Shown in pieces: positions 3,342 through 15,623 of a stretch of 47,776 nt of DNA. A program made the position numbers and the translations under genes. The stretch is from Chthoniobacter sp. (GTDB taxonomy: Bacteria; Verrucomicrobiota; Verrucomicrobiia; Chthoniobacterales; Chthoniobacteraceae). Within the stretch, counting starts at the first letter, position 1; each line of letters opens with the position of its first letter. Below the pieces are notes generated by a model. That model worked only from the letters and a program-made list of their open reading frames with translations. It searched no databases and had not been told where the DNA came from. The stretch covers positions 1 to 47,776 of the forward strand of contig JAQGOK010000133.1 of assembly GCA_028293645.1 (NCBI GenBank), given 5' to 3'.

Positions 3342-3560
3342 GATCTGACCCAAAATATTGAGGTAACTTTTCGCAGCGTTGCGAAAGATTGCGGTTTCCA
3401 GCGGCTGGCGCGGGGGGCTGGTGATTTCGGACGAAGGTGCGGTTGGACCGCTCGAGGATGTGCCAACAGTGGTGACGGGACGAATGGAGCGCAGCAAAGC
3501 AGTTCTCAGATTGGCTGCCGCCGGATCGTGGCACATGCACTGCTCCATCTCGAAGAACAC

Positions 3561-4088
3561 ATGTCAGGCCGTCAGCTTCAGCAAGGAGTGGGACTCCACT
3601 GCGCCCCTTTCTCGCAAGGTCGCCTGGGGAACGGGCGCTCTGAAACTGCGGGCATGGCTCTCGTTCAGGTGATCGTCGCCATGGCGATGATCCTACTTTG
3701 CGGTGTTGCGGGAGTCCGCGCGCTCGTGGAGATGAACCGAAAAGCCGCTGCGATGCGGACGCTGAACAACGCGCGTGCCGTCGTGCAACGGAACATCGAT
3801 ACCGCGTTGGGCGTTCCGTTCTCACGCACTGCGGCGCCTGCCGTCCTCGCCATTACTCCCGCTGCCGGGGTGATCTACGACGAAGACGGGAACGGGGACG
3901 GTCTGGTGGATGTGGTAACGCCGCGCAGCGGGGTGGGAGCGGTGGTGCAGGGGACCTTGCTGCGGACCGTGCTGGCGGAGCCGGGGAGTGAAGGGGCGGA
4001 CGTCCGTCGCGTCAGCTTTCAACTCACTTATACTTACCGAGCGAAGCCCTACACTTACCAGATGAGCACGCTACGCGCTCAGGATTGA
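3561..4088 (+). CDS. PilV-like pseudopilin (divergent prepilin leader)
   Basis: ETAG|MALVQVIVAMAMILLCGVAGVRALVEMNRKAAAMRTLNNAR looks like a pseudopilin N-terminal helix; directly upstream of a clear PilW-like prepilin. Start uncertain (3528 GTG or 3561 ATG). Confidence 0.6.
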   Translation: MSGRQLQQGVGLHCAPFSQGRLGNGRSETAGMALVQVIVAMAMILLCGVAGVRALVEMNRKAAAMRTLNNARAVVQRNIDTALGVPFSRTAAPAVLAITPAAGVIYDEDGNGDGLVDVVTPRSGVGAVVQGTLLRTVLAEPGSEGADVRRVSFQLTYTYRAKPYTYQMSTLRAQD

Positions 4089-4090
4089 TC

Positions 4091-4966
4091 ATGCGTTTGA
4101 TCCGATCAACTGCAACTCGGGGCTTCACGCTCGTCGAATTACTCGTGAGTGGCGCGATCGCCAGTACGATCGGCATCGCGGTGTTTATGTTCATGCATGC
4201 GGGCATGTTTCTCGCAGCCAAGAACCTCTCACTAAACCTGACGAGCAACTCAATGCGCACCGCGCTCGATCGGGTCGAGAACGTATTGCAGCAGGGGGAT
4301 AACAATCCGAGCTTGATTGACGCTACGGGTGCGCCGGCGACAGCGCCGGCCGCCGGCGTAAAGGTGGATCAGTTTCTCGGCGCACCCTATGTCGTCACTG
4401 CGCCCGTCACCGGACTCCCTGCGACCACCACCAGCATGACGCTCACCCGATCGACCAATGCGCTCGCCTCGCCACCGTTGCCGAAAGCCGGGGATGTAAT
4501 CCGCATCGATGGAACCGATGCTACCGTGCGGCCACGAGTGGCTTCCGTCGTGGTCGGTGCGATTAACTCCGCACGGCAGCCCATCACCGTCACGCTGACG
4601 GAACCGCTCGGGACGCCTGTCATTTTTGTCTCATCCACAGTGATTACCGCGAAGTTGGTGCGACCCGTAGCGTTCATCGTGCTTCCCAACGGGTCGAGAA
4701 AGGAACTGCGGTATTACGACCGTTTCGAACCAGTTCCAAACGTCCATGACGCGACGCAGTACGTGGTGGTATCGGACCAGATCGGTTTGCAAGGCGAAGA
4801 CGCCACGCCTTTTTCAATGTCTCAAATCGCCGGGAAGAACTTTGTCGCGTTCTCCCTCAGGGTTCGGGCGAGCGACTACGATCGCCGCCTTTTCGGAAAA
4901 CAAGTCGATGAGTTCAACACCTTTAGCCGCGTCGAGACTTACGTCCGGCCGAAGGTTAATCCGTAA
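4091..4966 (+). CDS. PilW-like prepilin-type N-terminal cleavage/methylation domain protein
   Basis: MRLIRSTATRGFTLVELLVSGAIASTIGIAVFMF, canonical G|FTLVELL prepilin signal. Confidence 0.85.
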   Translation: MRLIRSTATRGFTLVELLVSGAIASTIGIAVFMFMHAGMFLAAKNLSLNLTSNSMRTALDRVENVLQQGDNNPSLIDATGAPATAPAAGVKVDQFLGAPYVVTAPVTGLPATTTSMTLTRSTNALASPPLPKAGDVIRIDGTDATVRPRVASVVVGAINSARQPITVTLTEPLGTPVIFVSSTVITAKLVRPVAFIVLPNGSRKELRYYDRFEPVPNVHDATQYVVVSDQIGLQGEDATPFSMSQIAGKNFVAFSLRVRASDYDRRLFGKQVDEFNTFSRVETYVRPKVNP

Positions 4967-4969
4967 GCC

Positions 4970-6763
4970 ATGTATCTTAAACCCTGCCGGGGCAACATTC
5001 TGGTCGTCGCCCTCATCCTGATTGTCGTGGTATCCGGGTTTGTCGCGGCGGCTTTGAATTCGACGAGTAACAGCTCGCGCCAGACGGATCGGAGCCGGGA
5101 CTATGTGGCGGCCCAGGCTGCCGCGGAAGGTGCCTTGGAATATGGCTTTGCCATTTGGAAACGCCGGATCATCGAGCAGAACCGTGCAATCACGACCGCG
5201 GAAGCCAACTCGGACCTCACTCAGCCAGGCTTTCCCGGCTTTGCCTACGCGTCGACTGCCGAAAGGGGGCCCTTGCGGATCGATGCACTTGACGAATATG
5301 GCGCGCCGGTGGCCACTCCGAAACCGGTCACCATCGAAGTCATCAACTATCCTGGATGGCGGGGCCGCACCTACAGTTATCAAGCGCGAGCCAAGGTGAG
5401 GCAGGCTCCCGCGCAGTATAACCTGCGGGCAGGGGTGAAGCGCGGGTTCCAGTATTCCGAAGTCCCCCTCTTCCAGACTATGTTCTTCTTCGAGGATAAC
5501 CTCGAATTCTACAAGCCAGCCTCGATGATCATTAGCGGACTGGTCCATACCAACTCGTTCGCTTATATCAGCGGCCAGGACGGCGTGCCTCTCACGTTCC
5601 TGGATGGTGTGTCTTACGCCAAGGGATACAGCCACAGCTCCGATCCTCCCTTCTCGGATATGTGGAGTGGGTGGACCCCTAATGCCACCCGTTCACCGGT
5701 TTATCCTGACGGAATCGCGGAGCAGGTGCGGCAAGTGCCACGCTTCGAACCGCTGGGCAATGAGCCGGCTTCCGTACTCAACACCACGGATGTGAATCCC
5801 AACAACGATAGCATGCGTGAGTTGATCGAGCCTCCGAACAGCAGCTATCCAGACCCGGTGGAGTTGTCCGCCCGGCGCTTATATAACAAGGCGGGCATTG
5901 TTGTGAAGGTGAATGGTCCGCTCGTCACGGTCACGACCCAGAACGGCACCACGCTCAATGCGGCACGCAAGACGGATATCATCCAAACAGTTGTTGAACG
6001 GACGACCATCTATGACCAACGCGAGGGAAAGAACGTCGATGTGGCGACTGTGGATGTGGCGAAATTAACAGACACCCTGCGGAAGGGTGGAGTTAGCAAC
6101 TTCAACAGCGTCATTTACGTGCATGACACGACGCCTGTCACCGCCCTGGACCCTGAGCCAAAGTCGATTCGTTTGAAGAACGGCGGAGTGCTCCCGGACG
6201 GTGGCCTCAGCGTCGTCAGTGAGAATCCGATCTACATCCAGGGTGACTATAATACCGGGGCTACTACGAACCCGGCGCTTGTCCCTTCGAATGAAGGAGG
6301 GAATCCGAACAATACGGATGCTCCGACACTGACGGGCTACACACGCAAGCCGGCAGCCGTTATCGGAGATGCCGTGATGTTCCTTTCCAACAGTTGGAAC
6401 GATGCCAATGCAGCCCTCCCCGTGACCGATCGCGCAGCGACGCACACCACCTACAATACCGCCATTGTCTCCGGCTTTATGCCTTCCGGATACCAGCCAC
6501 CCTCAGGGGCGCAGTATGGCTACAGCGGCGGGGCCAATAATTTCCCCCGCTTCCTCGAGAACTGGACGGACGACAGTTGCACTTACTTCGGTTCGATGGT
6601 CGAACTCTACCAAAGTAAGACTTTCACGGGAGCTTGGGATACCGGCGTGATCTTCCGGCCGCCGCTACGCCGCTGGAATTTCGACGAGAATTTTCGCTCA
6701 ACTCCCCCGCCGGGGAGCCTTGATGCTGTCATCTGGAGCCGAGGCACCTGGGCCAAATACTAA
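4970..6763 (+). CDS. PilX-like large pseudopilin
   Basis: MYLKPCRGNILVVALILIVVVSGFVAAALNSTSNSSRQTDRSRDYVAAQAAAEGALEYG N-terminal TM/pseudopilin segment; about 597 aa; starts right after the PilW-like gene. Confidence 0.7.
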   Translation: MYLKPCRGNILVVALILIVVVSGFVAAALNSTSNSSRQTDRSRDYVAAQAAAEGALEYGFAIWKRRIIEQNRAITTAEANSDLTQPGFPGFAYASTAERGPLRIDALDEYGAPVATPKPVTIEVINYPGWRGRTYSYQARAKVRQAPAQYNLRAGVKRGFQYSEVPLFQTMFFFEDNLEFYKPASMIISGLVHTNSFAYISGQDGVPLTFLDGVSYAKGYSHSSDPPFSDMWSGWTPNATRSPVYPDGIAEQVRQVPRFEPLGNEPASVLNTTDVNPNNDSMRELIEPPNSSYPDPVELSARRLYNKAGIVVKVNGPLVTVTTQNGTTLNAARKTDIIQTVVERTTIYDQREGKNVDVATVDVAKLTDTLRKGGVSNFNSVIYVHDTTPVTALDPEPKSIRLKNGGVLPDGGLSVVSENPIYIQGDYNTGATTNPALVPSNEGGNPNNTDAPTLTGYTRKPAAVIGDAVMFLSNSWNDANAALPVTDRAATHTTYNTAIVSGFMPSGYQPPSGAQYGYSGGANNFPRFLENWTDDSCTYFGSMVELYQSKTFTGAWDTGVIFRPPLRRWNFDENFRSTPPPGSLDAVIWSRGTWAKY

Positions 6764-6767
6764 TCTG

Positions 6768-7361
6768 ATGCGACTTCGATACTTCCTGATCCTCGTGGGA
6801 CTGCTCCCGCAGTTGTCCTTTGCGGCGCTGGATCTGACGCCGCGCTTCATTGATACCTTCGCTGACGGGATTACCTTTCATCGGCTCTATTTCAGCGACG
6901 GTGAAAAGAAGTTCGTTCTCAGCCTCAATCGTGAAACGGAAGTCACCGCCGAGGGTAACGGCGCGCTTTTCCGCTTCACCAAGCTGAAGGAAGCGAAGTT
7001 CCTGCTGTCACGGTCGCGGCTTTCGCCATCGGACGTGTTTGAGGGCGCCGCTCTCGAGCGCTATCGCGAAGGAGCGAAGCGATTGATGCCAGCGCGAGGG
7101 GTGACGATCCTCGAGGAGGTTCTCAATCCACTGCCGATCAATGGCTGGAAGAGTTTCCGACTGACACTTTCGGGCGAGGTTAATGGGCAGAAATACCTGC
7201 AGAGCGTGACCTTCGTGAATCTCAATGACAGCGACCAGGTGGTGCTGGTCACCATCGCGCCGGAGCGCAGTTTTCCTGAAGCGGCCGACCGCTCTTTCCA
7301 GATTTTCCGCACCTGGCAGGAGATGCTTCCGGGGGACGAGCGTCCCGCTACTTCCAACTAG
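6768..7361 (+). CDS. Secreted hypothetical protein in the pseudopilin cassette
   Basis: ATG 6768; signal peptide MRLRYFLILVGLLPQLSFAA; a C-terminal homolog is present in the second, degenerate cassette. Confidence 0.7.
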   Translation: MRLRYFLILVGLLPQLSFAALDLTPRFIDTFADGITFHRLYFSDGEKKFVLSLNRETEVTAEGNGALFRFTKLKEAKFLLSRSRLSPSDVFEGAALERYREGAKRLMPARGVTILEEVLNPLPINGWKSFRLTLSGEVNGQKYLQSVTFVNLNDSDQVVLVTIAPERSFPEAADRSFQIFRTWQEMLPGDERPATSN

Positions 7362-8498: not shown

Positions 8499-9311
8499 GT
8501 GAGTTCATCCCTTTTCGATCTTTCCGGAGAAGTTGCGGTGGTAATTGGTGGGACCGGCGTGCTCGGCGGTGCATTGGCTGAAGGCCTCGCGGCTGCCGGA
8601 GCGGGCGTCGCCATCGTCGGTCGGAATACGGAGCGAGGCGAAGCGCGCGTGCAGGTGATTCGTAGTGCGGGTGGAAGTGGGCACTTCGTGAGCGCCGATG
8701 CGATGGACCGCACTTCGTTGCAAGTGGCGCACGAGACCGTTGCCCGTGTGCTCGGTGAGCCGACCATCCTCATCAACGCAGCCGGCGGTAATGATCCGAA
8801 AGTGACGGTCACGGCGGAGCGCGCATTCGAGACGCTCGCGCTCGAGGATTGGCGCGCGAATTTCGACCTCAATCTGGTCGGAGGCGTCCTGCTCCCTTGT
8901 CAGGAATTTGGCCCCGGCATGTGTGCGCGCGGCCGTGGATCGATCATCAACATCGCCAGCGTTTCCGCACATCTGCCGCTTTCCCGAGTCGTCGCCTACA
9001 GCGCGAGCAAAGCCGCCGTGCTGAGCCTCTCCGCGTTTCTGGCCCGCGAGTGGGCCCCGAAACGGGTGCGGGTGAATACGATCACCCCCGGGTTCTTCCC
9101 CGCGGAACAGAACCGCAAGCTGCTCTTCAACGACGATGGCTCGCCCACCGCCCGTACCAACTCGATCCTGGGTCACACGCCAATGGGCCGCTTCGGGACG
9201 AGCGAGGAACTGATCGGTGCATGCGTGTTCCTGGCGAGCGAGAAGGCGAGCAGCTTCGTGACCGGCAGCGACCTGCGGGTGGACGGCGGTTTTTTAAGCC
9301 AGACCATTTAG
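8499..9311 (+). CDS. SDR family oxidoreductase (D-mannonate/fructuronate oxidoreductase-like)
   Basis: GGTGVLGGALAEGLAAAGAGVAIVGRN, NAAGGNDP, SVSAHLPLSRVVAYSASKAAV, VNTITPGFFPAEQNRKLL. Confidence 0.88.
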   Translation: MSSSLFDLSGEVAVVIGGTGVLGGALAEGLAAAGAGVAIVGRNTERGEARVQVIRSAGGSGHFVSADAMDRTSLQVAHETVARVLGEPTILINAAGGNDPKVTVTAERAFETLALEDWRANFDLNLVGGVLLPCQEFGPGMCARGRGSIINIASVSAHLPLSRVVAYSASKAAVLSLSAFLAREWAPKRVRVNTITPGFFPAEQNRKLLFNDDGSPTARTNSILGHTPMGRFGTSEELIGACVFLASEKASSFVTGSDLRVDGGFLSQTI

Positions 9312-9377
9312 CGCCGCGTTCGCTCCGCGGTTCACTCCGGAATTGCCACCGGCACCGCTGCGGCGGAACCTTGGGCC

Positions 9378-10658
9378 ATGCCCAGCCTCTCGCAAACGGC
9401 CACCCCCGGAACGTCGCTCAACGCCGAGCAAAGCGCGGCGCTGATTGCACAAGCCTGTCCCGCCAAGGACTACAAGGATCAGCGCGTTCTCCTGATCGTG
9501 CCGGATGCGACGCGCACCTGTCCGTTGGGGATGCTCTTCGCGGGTTTGCACGAGCAGATCGGCGCGGCGACGCGGCAGTTCGATGTGATGATCGCGCTCG
9601 GGACGCACCCGCCGATGAGCGAGGAGGCGATCTGCGAGCGGCTGGAGATTACGCTCGAGCAGCGCCGCTCCACGTTTCGCGACGTGCGGTTCCTCAATCA
9701 CGAGTGGGACAATCCCGGCGCGCTCCGCAACGTCGGCACGATCTCCGCGGCTGAGATCCACGACCTGAGCGGCGGACTCTTCGAGATGGACGTGCCGGTA
9801 AACATCAACGCGCAGCTCTTCGAGTACGACCAGCTCATCATCATTGGTCCGGTGTTCCCGCATGAAGTCGTCGGCTTTAGCGGCGGCAACAAATACCTGT
9901 TCCCCGGCGTCAGCGGACCCGAAGTGCTGAACTTCTTCCATTGGCTCGGTGCAGTCGTCACGAACCCGATGATCATCGGCAACAAGTGGACGCCGGTGCG
10001 CAAAGTGGTGGATCGCGCCGCCGCGTTCGTGGAAGTGCCGAAGCTCTGCTTCTGCATGGTGGTCGAAAAGGCGGAGCTCGCCGGGCTCTTCATCGGCAGT
10101 CCAGAGGAAGCTTGGGACGACGCGAGCGAGCTCTCGAAGCGGCTGCACATTGAATACAAGGAGCGTCCTTTCCACACGGTGCTGAGCTGCGCGCCGAAGA
10201 TGTACGACGAGCTCTGGGTCGGTGGAAAATGCATGTACAAGCTCGAGCCGGTGGTCGCCGACGGCGGCGAACTGATCATCTACGCGCCGCACATTCACGA
10301 GGTCAGCGTCGTGCATGGGCGCGTGATCGAAGAGATCGGTTACCACTGCTGCGATTACTTCCGAAAGCAGTGGGACAAGTTCAGTCACTACCCTTGGGGC
10401 ACGCTCGCGCACAGCACGCATGTGCGCGGCATCGGGACGTTTGAAGATGGTGTCGAGCGTTGCCGCATCCAGGTCACGCTCGCGACGAGTATCCCCGAGG
10501 AAGTCTGCCGCCGGATCAACCTCGGCTACCGAGATCCTGCATCAATCGATCCCGCCGCGTATGCCGGACGCGAAGAGGAAGGCGTGCTCTACGTTCCCAA
10601 AGCCGGCGAGATGCTCTACCACCTGCGCGACCGGCCGGCATGGGCGCGGGAGATGTAA
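9378..10658 (+). CDS. LarA-family nickel-pincer racemase/epimerase (DUF2088)
   Basis: PDATRTCP, GTHPPMSEEAI and PHEVVGFSGGNKYLFPGVSGPEVLNFFH, whose H...K...H spacing (10 and 16 residues) matches LarA H174/K184/H200. Confidence 0.88.
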   Translation: MPSLSQTATPGTSLNAEQSAALIAQACPAKDYKDQRVLLIVPDATRTCPLGMLFAGLHEQIGAATRQFDVMIALGTHPPMSEEAICERLEITLEQRRSTFRDVRFLNHEWDNPGALRNVGTISAAEIHDLSGGLFEMDVPVNINAQLFEYDQLIIIGPVFPHEVVGFSGGNKYLFPGVSGPEVLNFFHWLGAVVTNPMIIGNKWTPVRKVVDRAAAFVEVPKLCFCMVVEKAELAGLFIGSPEEAWDDASELSKRLHIEYKERPFHTVLSCAPKMYDELWVGGKCMYKLEPVVADGGELIIYAPHIHEVSVVHGRVIEEIGYHCCDYFRKQWDKFSHYPWGTLAHSTHVRGIGTFEDGVERCRIQVTLATSIPEEVCRRINLGYRDPASIDPAAYAGREEEGVLYVPKAGEMLYHLRDRPAWAREM

Positions 10659-10700
10659 GCCGGCGGTGACCGACGAGCCCTTCAGCAGGCGAGTCGGAAC

Positions 10701-12065
10701 TTACTTCTTATGCCAGCTTTGCAGGCAGGCCAGGCTTGCGGCCGAAGCCTCGGCGTATTCGGTTTCCGGAGCCGTGACGATGACCTGCAGCTCTTCACGC
10801 TGATTGAGCCGAACCAGGAGCACGCATGGGCCGCGTGAAAACGTGGTGAACGCGAACAGGCCGGGTGAGGGTCGCTTGGTGAACTCTTCGTTATAGCTCC
10901 AGTTCCGATTCGGCGGCGTGTAAACGTCGCCGGTCCGCCACTGGCCGGTGAAAGTTTTCGACGTGAAGAGCTGCACCATGGAGCCCTTGAAGTTCACGTC
11001 GCTCCAATTCTCCAGCAGCCGGGGAAAATTGTGTGCACCGCCGCTCGCGCCATAGTTGTCGCCATTGTTCGGGAGGGCTGGCGTCGGGTCGTAGCCGGTC
11101 GGGACCGAACCCGCCATGATGGCGGTGCGGACGGTCGTATCGGTCGCGCGCCGATCGCTTCCAGCAACAGTCAGGGAAGGATCGATCGTATCGTCCACGC
11201 CATAAAGAGGGTTCGGCGCGTTCTCATCTTTCCAGTTGTTGGAAAGGATCGTCACCGCGTCGGCCAGCACCGCTGAGGGCACCTGCGCCGTCCCGGTGTA
11301 GCTGTTGTAGTCGCCGCGGATATAAAGTCCCGCGTCCGTCGCCACCGAGAAGCCGCGCTCGTTGGACGGGAGATCAATGGCCTTGTCGTAGGTGGGAAGT
11401 TGCGAGGCGTTTTCGAGGCGGAAAGCCCGTTTGTTCGCGTCGGCGCTCTCGTCGCTAAAATGAACGATCCCGTTGAAGTGCTTCGCAGGATCCGCACTCG
11501 CATTCATCTCCATGATCGCGCTTCCGAGCTTGGTGACATCGACAGGCGTGACGGAGACGTCCTGCTTCTCGCGTCGGTCATGGATGGGCCGTCGATTTCC
11601 CAATGCGGCCACCACCTTCGCGGCGACGGTCGCGCTCACCGGCGTTCCATCTCGACCGAGGACGCTCACGGTCTGGGTTGCCACCCCGCCGACGATCACC
11701 TGCTTCACAGAAACCTTCAGTGCTGCCTGATTGTAGAAGCGGTACGGAGCGATGGTTGCGGGATCCGTATAACCAGTGGCGGGCTTCTCAAGGATCTCGC
11801 GGAACCCATCATTGTTGGGGTTCACATCGGTCGGCTTCGGAGTGGGCGTTGGCGTCGGGGTCGGTTCGGGAGTCGGAACCGGAGTTGGGGTGAGCGTCGG
11901 CACCGGAGTCGCGGGCTTGGGCGTCACGATCGGAATCGGGACCGCGGAGGCGTACTGAATGTGCGCCGCGGATTTCCAGATGACCGCCGTATTCACCGCG
12001 AGATCGGAATTGAACTTCGTGTTCTGGCGCCGGCTGAATTCCCGCGCCCTGATCTGCAAGTTCAC
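10701..12065 (-). pseudogene. Fused C-terminal remnants of PilW-like, PilX-like and third-gene paralogs of the 4091-7361 cassette
   Basis: TDVNPNND, DRREKQDVSVTPVDVTKL, DRRATDTTVRTAIMAGSVPTGYDP and YGASGGAHNFPRLLENWSD...GSMVQLFTSKTFTGQW match the PilX-like protein; the tail VLLVRLNQREELQVIVTAPETEYAEASAASLACLQSW matches the end of the 6768-7361 product. Confidence 0.75.
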
Positions 12066-12094
12066 CCGGATTGCCCGGTACTCGGGATCCCGCG

Positions 12095-12496
12095 TCAGGA
12101 TTTCCAGCGTCGGATCAGCGGTGAACGAAAACGGTTTCTCGCCCGTGCCCGTCCGACGTTTCCGCGCGAGACGGCATAGTTTGAAGGATCCTCAAACACG
12201 GCAACGCCATCGGCGGTCGTGCTCTTCGCCGTGCGATAGTAGCGGAGCTGCACGGCCGCTCCCGAGTTTTCCGGCACGGCCACAAAGGCGCTCTCACGGG
12301 TGATCGACACGGGCGTGTCCTTGGTAACGAAGTCCGGGTTGCCGGTTGTCTGCGGCGGCAACGAAAGCTCGCCCAGCTTTTTGGCAAACTGCAGCTCTAC
12401 GTTTCCGCCCGAAAGGCTGACTGCATCGACACGCGCGGCGATGCGCGGGTCGCTCAAGGTTACCAAGATCGTTTGGGGGTCCAAGGTTTCGGGCAA
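12095..12496 (-). pseudogene. PilW-like fragment, 5'-truncated and frameshifted relative to the downstream fused ORF
   Basis: FVAVPENSGAAVQLRYYRTAKSTTADGVAVFEDPSNYAVSRG aligns with FIVLPNGSRKELRYYDRFEPVPNVHDATQYVVVSDQI; homology continues in another frame as GTGEKPFSFTADP...YRAIRVNLQIRAREFSRR. Confidence 0.65.
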
Positions 12497-12554
12497 CCTG
12501 CGTCTTCCCGAATTCGCAGGCCTGAGAGTGCCGGCGTCACAAACTGACGCGGGG

Positions 12555-15500
12555 TCAGGCGCTGCGGCGCTCGAAATCGTGGAAGATCACTCCGGGTTTC
12601 GCGGCCTGTGCGAGCACTTCGGCCACTTTGCGGCCGAGCGCGTCGATCTCGTACGGCTTGGCGATCATGCCGCTAAAGCCGAAGTCTTCGTAACGGCTCA
12701 TCACCGGATCATTGGCGTAGCCGGAGGAAACGATCGCCCGCACCGAAGGGTCGAGCGCACGAAGGCGCTGGATGGCTTCCTGACCGCCCATCCCGCCGGG
12801 GATCGTGAGGTCGCTGATCACCAGATCGTATTTGCGGCCGGAGTTCATCGCCTCCTGGTATTTGCCGATCGCGGTCAGCGCGTCCTGGGTCTCGGTCACT
12901 TCGTAGCCGAGTGGCTCCAGCGCGCAGGTCACGAGCATGCAGATCGCTTCTTCGTCATCGAGCACGAGCACGCGCCCGTTTCCCACCGGCACCGGCGCGT
13001 CCTTCACGGTGAGCGCTTGCACCTTCTTTTCCGAAGCCGGCAGGCAGACCGTGAAGACGCTGCCGTGCCCGGCGCGGCTTTCGGCGAGGATCACCCCGGA
13101 GTGATTCTTCACGATCGAGTAAGCGGTCGCCAACCCGAGTCCGCTGCTCTTCGGTTTAGTAGTGAAATAAGGATCGAAGATCTTCTTCAGGTATTGCTCG
13201 GGAATGCCGGCGCCTTCGTCCTGCATCGAGAAGCGCACCCATTTTCCGGCGCGCAAACCGAGGCTCGTCGAATCGGTATGCAGTTCGAGGTTCTCCGCGG
13301 TGAGATGCAGGCTGCCGCCCGTCGGCATGGCCTGCTCGGCATTGATCGCCAGATTGTTGATGACCTGCGCGAGTTGGCCGGGGTCCGCGTCCACCGGCCA
13401 GACGGAGTCGGGCAATTGGAAGTGGCAGCGCGTCCGCGAGTCCCGAAGCGTGTAGCTGACCGTGTCGTGGATGAGCTGCGCGATCGATGTGGGCTGTTTC
13501 ACCGGCGAACCGCCTTTCGCAAACGTCAACAATTGCCCGGCCAGTTCCTGGGCGCGGCCGATCGCTTTCCGCGCGGTTGCCAGCCGCGTCGCGACTTGCT
13601 CCTCCGGGTTGCTCGCCAGCGCCAGGCTGATGTTTCCGAGGATGGTCGTGAGGATATTATTGAAGTCGTGCGCGATGCCGCCGGCCACGACGCCGAGCGA
13701 CTCGAGCTTCTCGGCTTTCTGGCGCTCTTCCTCCGCTTTCTGGCGTTCGGTGACATCGCGCAGCACGATGACCACGCCGAGCTTGCGACCGTTCCGATCA
13801 CGAATCGGCGCGCTGCTGCTTTCCGCCAGGCGTTCCGTGCCGTCGCGCGCAACCAGCACGGCCGGGAGAGTGATGCCGTCCGGAGTGCCGCTGGTGGCGA
13901 TGCGTTGCAACGCGTGCTGGCAGGGGCGGCGCGTCCGCTCGTCCAGCAAGTGCAAAACCTCGGCGAGCGGCTTGTTCGCGGCCGCGTCCTGGCTCCAGCC
14001 GGTCAGGCGCTCAGCGATCGGATTCAAGGTCAGCACCCGTCCTTCGTTGTCGATCGTCAGACAACCATCGCCGATTGAGCGCAACGTGACCGCGAGGCGT
14101 TCCTTTTCCGCGGCGAGTGCTTCTTCCGAACGCTTTCGTTCGACCTCCGCGGCCGCACGGGCCGCGAAGATGCGCAACGTGCTTTCGCTGATCCCGGTAT
14201 CGCTGAGCGGCTGCCGATCAAGGATGCCGATGACGCCGATGGCGACCCCGCGGTGATCCGCGAGCGGGATGCCGAGAAACCCTTCGGCTTCAGCTTCCGC
14301 GAGCAGCGGATCTTCGGGAAACTCGACGCGCACGCCGGCGAGATGAGCGCGGTAACCCTTGGCGAGCACCTCGGCGCAAGCGGTGTTCTGCAGGTCGAAA
14401 GGCTCGCTGGCGCGCAACTCGCCCTTCTCCGCGACCGTCAACATCGTGCGCGGGTCGCCTTCGCTCCCGAGCTCCACCAGAAAGGCGCGGTCGTGATCGA
14501 GCGCTTTGGAGAGCTGCTTCAACAGTGAGCGGACGAACTCTTCACCCGTCGCAGCGGTGACGCCGAGCCCAATGTGCTTGAGTGTTTCCTCGCCGCGTTT
14601 GCGTTCGGTGACATCGCGAATGATGGCGCAAAACTGCCGGCGGCCCGAGACCTTCAGCTCGCTCAAACTGATCTCGATCGGGAAAGGGTAGTAGCCCTGC
14701 CGCTGGCCCATGACCGTGAGCGTGGCGCGGCCGACGCTCGCGACATCGTGAAAGAAGAGGCGTTGCGGGATCAGCAGCGAAATGTTCTGGCCGAGCATCT
14801 TTTCGACCGGCTGCCCGAACATCTTTTCGGCTGACGGATTCATCGACTGAATGCAGCCCTGATCATCGACGATCAAAACGCCGTCGAGCGTCGTGGCGAT
14901 GATGCTGTGGGTTTGTGCGAGGGCGCTCTCGGCTTTGCGAAGGTGATCGCGGAAGATGCGGTAGCTCGCCCGCGAAGTGAGGATCAGAAACGTCACGCCG
15001 AGCCCACCGAGCAGGACCAGCCCGACTGTTTGCAAGGCCCTCTGCCGATCGCTGGCGACTGCCGCCTGTTCGACGACCGCGGCGCGACTCCGGACCAGAG
15101 CAGACGCGGACGCGCGGAGGTCGTCCGCAGTGGCGCTGGCTTGCGGGCGACCAACACGCTCGCGCCCGGATTGAAGGGCGGAGATCTCGGGCAATGCAGA
15201 CTGATCGAGCCATTCACGAAAATGGGCGTTCAACGTCCGAACCTGATCGCGCGCTGCACTCTCCGTCAGCATCGGCAAAAGAGTCGTGAGATGCTGATGA
15301 ACCCGCGTGCGGTGGCGGACGAAGCGCTGAAAATAGAGGGGCTGTTTTGTGAGCAGGTAGGCGCGATAGGCCGCGTCCAGATGCGCGATATTGGATTCAG
15401 CGGCCTGCGCGAGGCGCAACGACTCGTAGGCCTGCGCTCGCTTCGTATCGTCCTGGCGGCTGCGCCAGGCCAGCGTGAGGAAAACCGCCGCCACGATCAG

Positions 15501-15623
15501 AATCAGGACGACCGCACAGCAGGCGGACCAGAGAAGGCGGCGGGAGACTCCGCCGTCCTCGGCCAGCCACTTGCGAATCTTCGCAAAGGTAGGGAAGTGA
15601 GACGGCAGATCGGACGGGGGCAT
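12555..15623 (-). CDS. Hybrid sensor histidine kinase (CHASE3-like, PAS, GAF, PAS, HisKA, HATPase, receiver)
   Basis: TM segment near the N-terminus; PAS IDDQGCIQSMNPSAEKMFG; HisKA VVAGGIAHDFNNILTTILGNISLA; HATPase DEGAGIPEQYLKKIFDPYFTTKPKSSGLGLATAY; receiver VLVLDDEEAICML...DLVISDLTIPGGMGG. Confidence 0.95.
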   Translation of the reverse strand: MPPSDLPSHFPTFAKIRKWLAEDGGVSRRLLWSACCAVVLILIVAAVFLTLAWRSRQDDTKRAQAYESLRLAQAAESNIAHLDAAYRAYLLTKQPLYFQRFVRHRTRVHQHLTTLLPMLTESAARDQVRTLNAHFREWLDQSALPEISALQSGRERVGRPQASATADDLRASASALVRSRAAVVEQAAVASDRQRALQTVGLVLLGGLGVTFLILTSRASYRIFRDHLRKAESALAQTHSIIATTLDGVLIVDDQGCIQSMNPSAEKMFGQPVEKMLGQNISLLIPQRLFFHDVASVGRATLTVMGQRQGYYPFPIEISLSELKVSGRRQFCAIIRDVTERKRGEETLKHIGLGVTAATGEEFVRSLLKQLSKALDHDRAFLVELGSEGDPRTMLTVAEKGELRASEPFDLQNTACAEVLAKGYRAHLAGVRVEFPEDPLLAEAEAEGFLGIPLADHRGVAIGVIGILDRQPLSDTGISESTLRIFAARAAAEVERKRSEEALAAEKERLAVTLRSIGDGCLTIDNEGRVLTLNPIAERLTGWSQDAAANKPLAEVLHLLDERTRRPCQHALQRIATSGTPDGITLPAVLVARDGTERLAESSSAPIRDRNGRKLGVVIVLRDVTERQKAEEERQKAEKLESLGVVAGGIAHDFNNILTTILGNISLALASNPEEQVATRLATARKAIGRAQELAGQLLTFAKGGSPVKQPTSIAQLIHDTVSYTLRDSRTRCHFQLPDSVWPVDADPGQLAQVINNLAINAEQAMPTGGSLHLTAENLELHTDSTSLGLRAGKWVRFSMQDEGAGIPEQYLKKIFDPYFTTKPKSSGLGLATAYSIVKNHSGVILAESRAGHGSVFTVCLPASEKKVQALTVKDAPVPVGNGRVLVLDDEEAICMLVTCALEPLGYEVTETQDALTAIGKYQEAMNSGRKYDLVISDLTIPGGMGGQEAIQRLRALDPSVRAIVSSGYANDPVMSRYEDFGFSGMIAKPYEIDALGRKVAEVLAQAAKPGVIFHDFERRSA

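Follow-up and report, generated by a model that had tools for sequence, protein, structure and literature searches.

Known pilus-tip systems and the V-W-X-D cassettes

ComZ of Thermus thermophilus is a competence pilin containing a beta-solenoid between its penultimate and last pilin strands; its position has been argued to be the pilus tip, DNA binding has been demonstrated, and ComZ itself resembles GspK (PMC6561018). The cyanobacterial hpsA-D genes encode a membrane protein and pseudopilins and may aid polysaccharide export (PMC6495340). The cassettes described here contain four genes, labelled V, W, X and D for the first to the fourth, and the locus of interest lies in a 47,776-nucleotide contig of a Chthoniobacter sp. 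(the window, meaning the whole stretch of DNA analysed) from a single assembly of 225 contigs and 80% completeness. Two cassettes of other subtypes are intact in this genome, one within the window and the second on contig C136, and the locus is very probably a non-functional remnant of a third.

By domain layout V, W and X are similar to GspI, GspJ and GspK of type II secretion, although the N-terminal profile matches are weak and none is above its cut-off. Among prepilin N-termini on V and W, one (V of genome G027) is above the Pfam N_methyl cut-off and the other hits are weak and below it. The Verru_Chthon cassette protein C model (TIGR02599) is matched only over the pilin N-terminus, at 11–16 bits against a cut-off of 256.5. 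X shares with HpsA (NF038301) a local C-terminal match (E 2.5e-11 for the remnant) and the association with pseudopilin genes, but is much shorter than the 1503-position model and scores 37–53 bits (remnant 42) against a cut-off of 400.

The intact X of the window (4970-6763) was modelled from 40 sequences with a mean pLDDT of 91.3 and a pTM of 0.86, superseding a six-sequence model (pLDDT 48.5). The model shows a helix (residues 9-70), then four pilin-like strands up to residue 166; after a long beta-rich stretch comes a last strand (585-596). Its only PDB structure matches with E < 0.001 are three ComZ chains of T. thermophilus (6qvi; Foldseek E 7e-11); no match came from a profile search with X against PDB sequences. 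The window X thus has a predicted ComZ-like layout of N-terminal pilin helix, sheet, and a solenoid inserted ahead of the last pilin strand, but with about 10% identity and a global TM-score of just 0.30 the likeness is confined to fold and topology and falls short of a close structural match. The X of another intact cassette (L067, 4190-6040) is also predicted to be a ComZ-like tip pilin. From these likenesses the cassettes are inferred to function as pilus-tip complexes.

Organization of the remnant

On the minus strand between 12463 and 10701, three cassette proteins follow one another in the cassette order W, X, D, each represented by its C-terminal part. The features of the region are:

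3528..7361, plus strand, intact paralogous V-W-X-D cassette of another subtype in the same window
9378-10658, LarA-like gene flanking the remnant
10701..12065, minus strand, fused ORF of 454 codons, first GTG to stop
10704..10829, minus strand, D remnant, C-terminal 41-42 residues of the cassette's fourth protein, fused in frame to X
10830..11831, minus strand, X remnant (ComZ-like minor pilin), running from TDVNPNND to SRG and matching residues 285-618 of the G060 X, which has 622
11832..12164, minus strand, W remnant downstream of the frame change (W residues 267-382), with the native Pro/Thr-rich tail at its C-terminal end
12164..12170, minus strand, frame change within the W remnant, separating the frame of W residues to 263 from that of residues 267 onward
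12170..12463, minus strand, W remnant in the first frame, residues 165-263 of the 445-residue G027 orthologue (PilW-like minor pilin)
12555-15623, histidine kinase gene flanking the remnant

An earlier note on this DNA described a minus-strand ORF of 454 codons running across two junctions in the gene order of the intact cassette, and this description stands (12065-10701). It had extended the homology over 10701-12554; homology is detectable only from about 12463. In local alignments with the window's own cassette, the X part from TDVNPNND to SRG (z = 93, 100 residue shuffles) and the C-terminal ~40 residues of the third cassette protein of that note, here D (z = 11.3, 500 shuffles), match as it claimed. 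The two W pieces do not align significantly to the 4091-4966 product, to which it had assigned them (z = 1.9 and 2.8); the PilW-like identity therefore rests on relatives, and there it is clear. The 12170..12463 piece is 45% identical to the G027 W (E 1e-17; shuffle z 28) and the 11832..12164 piece is 58% identical to a relative's W (E 1.6e-33; shuffle z 38).

The X remnant covers most of the beta-solenoid and the start of the last pilin strand, and is 64% identical to the G060 X (E 4e-135; shuffle z 178 against orthologues). At the DNA level it is 70% identical to G060 over 1014 aligned columns, the alignment beginning at the TDVNPNND codons and stopping at the SRG codons, with both ends sharp and at the joins. 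The D remnant is 54% identical to a relative's D (E 2.4e-8; shuffle z 23). A Pfam search of the remnant gave no match and all its NCBIfam matches are below threshold.

Because the W remnant is split over two frames, the fused ORF contains just the last part of W, its frame being open from about 12190. Neither a prepilin leader nor a signal peptide was found in it, and no obvious ribosome-binding site precedes GTG 12065 or TTG 12496.

Intact cassettes in relatives

Full-length cassettes, which the earlier note had suggested seeking in relatives, are present: the same X subtype occurs in three of 40 genomes searched within the family (G000 plus 39 further assemblies). These are the public Verrucomicrobiota MAGs LBMAG_Verrucomicrobia_hypo.bin3 (G060), F1-20-MAGs024 (G031) and Umea3_bin-0475 (G027), with X identities to the remnant of 63%, 58% and 60%, respectively. 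In G060, W, X and D are consecutive on L085, with V upstream on L086, and W contains a run of N. In G031, V, W and X lie on L065; no D was seen after X, which is followed by a putative aminoglycoside-phosphotransferase-like ORF. In G027, V and W are on L066 and the rest of X and D on L011, the break falling within X. These intact relatives belong to another genus, at the family level.

The three cassettes resemble the remnant in gene order, sequence and the Pro/Thr-rich W tail, but retain V and the N-terminal parts that the remnant, with its fused genes, has lost. Their long Pro/Thr-rich W tails (L065 5467-6741; L066 1171-2508; L085 3388-3948) are unusual for a pilin. A contig scan with the subtype alignment as query returned 31 loci, of which these three are the closest. 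More widely, X relatives occur in many Verrucomicrobiota, including Opitutaceae and Puniceicoccaceae, and on one contig, L077 (G002:C198), a pair of cassettes that differ in subtype face each other (3440-7330 and 11179-7463).

The locus had been proposed to be a collapsed paralogue of the window's pseudopilin cassette. Full cassettes with the same gene order in relatives bear out the collapse; the parent was not a copy of 3528-7361, however, but a member of a separate, older subtype. A stable fused family in relatives, which would have told against a collapse, was not seen: the fused form is absent from every genome searched, and a scan of the contigs with the fused ORF as query found no relative.

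Missing segments and junctions

The N-terminal parts are missing as the earlier note stated, W, X and D starting at residues 165, 285 and 147 of their intact homologues. Measured against the intact cassettes, the remnant has no V; W has lost residues 1-164, X residues 1-284 as well as its final four, and D residues 1-146. Gone with them are the prepilin N-termini of W and X and the N-terminal part of D; the related C-terminal parts are retained, in cassette order. Relative to the intact orthologues the locus is both truncated and disrupted in frame, as is typical of a pseudogene. No V of the remnant subtype lies beside the remnant in the window, and no other contig of the assembly contains this subtype's missing W, X and D segments. 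The G060 gaps that match the joins are roughly 1.0 kb (W tail to X), a loose figure because the W tail is repetitive, and about 0.6 kb (X to D).

The X break corresponds to residue 273 of the window X, inside the predicted beta-solenoid. It removes the membrane helix, all of the pilin sheet except the last strand, and the first solenoid turns, so that the remnant, unlike ComZ, has no pilin domain. The Pro/Thr stretch ahead of the X part was considered as a new linker and rejected, because the W proteins of the intact subtype end likewise; in G011:C10, the one X whose alignment spans the stretch, it is absent. The W/X join falls between the native W tail and the inside of X. The X|D join is flanked by the arms of a perfect 14-base inverted repeat (10786-10799 / 10962-10975), one in the D part and one in the X part; the repeat is probably there by chance.

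Divergence and selection

A tree built from 26 X sequences places the remnant inside the G031_C3/G060/G027 clade (support 100/99) with an end branch of 0.22, against 0.16 for intact G060. It retains 30 of 32 near-invariant X residues, and its X part runs for 334 codons with neither a stop nor a frame change. Third codon positions account for 49% of the private nucleotide changes in the remnant X, against 40-44% in the intact copies. In a test for relaxed selection the codon-position pattern of X resembles that of the intact copies, and the damage is perhaps too recent to register. The remnant subtype, judged from these comparisons, is old, but its X part carries no trace of free drift. The locus had been described as an old diverged duplicate that lost segments. 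The divergence is indeed old, but the damage looks recent, given the short branch within an intact clade and the residues retained. The data fit both recent damage and continued selection on the X part.

Genomic context

The two neighbours of the remnant, the LarA-like gene and the histidine kinase gene, do not share a contig in relatives, where the regions read around each contain no adjacent cassette. The remnant is therefore at a point of broken synteny (window 9294-15623), between two genes that are unlinked elsewhere, and this arrangement would fit a rearrangement that also cost the remnant its 5′ end.

Within the same genus, a C136-subtype cassette (L079; G004:C13, 1172-4980) has frame changes in W (1968-2060) and X (near 4058) and is possibly another decaying copy. 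On this evidence cassette decay is probably recurrent, although draft assemblies do contain false frame changes.

Origin and status of the fused reading frame

The parent cassette would have built the tip of a pilus or pseudopilus. In it V and W would be prepilins and X a tip pilin carrying a ComZ-like beta-solenoid; D would be an accompanying protein, probably with an N-terminal signal peptide. A loss at the 5′ side would have removed V together with W up to residue 164, probably as part of the rearrangement by which the histidine kinase gene came to lie alongside. A deletion of roughly 1.0 kb would account for the W tail running into the middle part of X, and one of about 0.6 kb for the join of the X end to the D end. 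A frame change would have broken what remained of W, and both joins are in frame, apparently by chance, leaving a long open frame. With the N-termini of W, X and D lost, no leader, anchor or export signal is left, and the remnant product could hardly enter a pilus.

The earlier note left the choice between a decaying remnant and a new chimeric protein undecided; the frame change near 12167, which it had not seen, favours the remnant. The fused ORF could alternatively encode a working soluble chimera, in which a W fragment including the Pro/Thr tail precedes most of the X beta-solenoid, with the D tail at the end. Two in-frame joins, for which the chance is about 1 in 9, speak against non-function, as does an X part of undamaged codons whose near-invariant residues and third-position pattern are like those of the intact copies. 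This reading is nonetheless improbable: the ORF has no leader, signal peptide or clear ribosome-binding site, its open frame begins inside a W domain past the frame change, X is broken within the predicted solenoid rather than at a domain edge, and the fusion recurs in none of the relatives searched. That gene collapse has created, from three pilin-cassette C-termini, an in-frame fusion expressed as a new soluble beta-solenoid protein is accordingly quite unlikely.

Nor does the assembly readily explain the structure. A cassette intact in the cell could have been collapsed in so fragmented and incomplete a draft, the W tail is of low complexity, and the relatives break nearby, G027 being split in X and G060 having its N run in W. 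Such an artefact would nevertheless require a frame change on top of three separate losses, no long repeat lies at the X|D join, and the missing segments do not turn up elsewhere in the assembly, which makes this explanation quite improbable as well. A stable fused family unrelated to the cassette can be virtually dismissed, since the pieces correspond one by one to separate genes in the intact cassettes of relatives, in the same order.

A non-functional remnant of a third V-W-X-D minor-pilin cassette is thus much the best explanation of the stretch. It represents ordinary, though unusually clean, bacterial gene decay, with the intact set surviving in related Verrucomicrobiota, and it illustrates the turnover of pilus-tip cassettes in this phylum, in which subtypes diverge, span genera and decay singly. 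The predicted identity of X as a ComZ-like solenoid tip pilin would give these unnamed cassettes a testable role in surface binding, DNA uptake or polysaccharide export.
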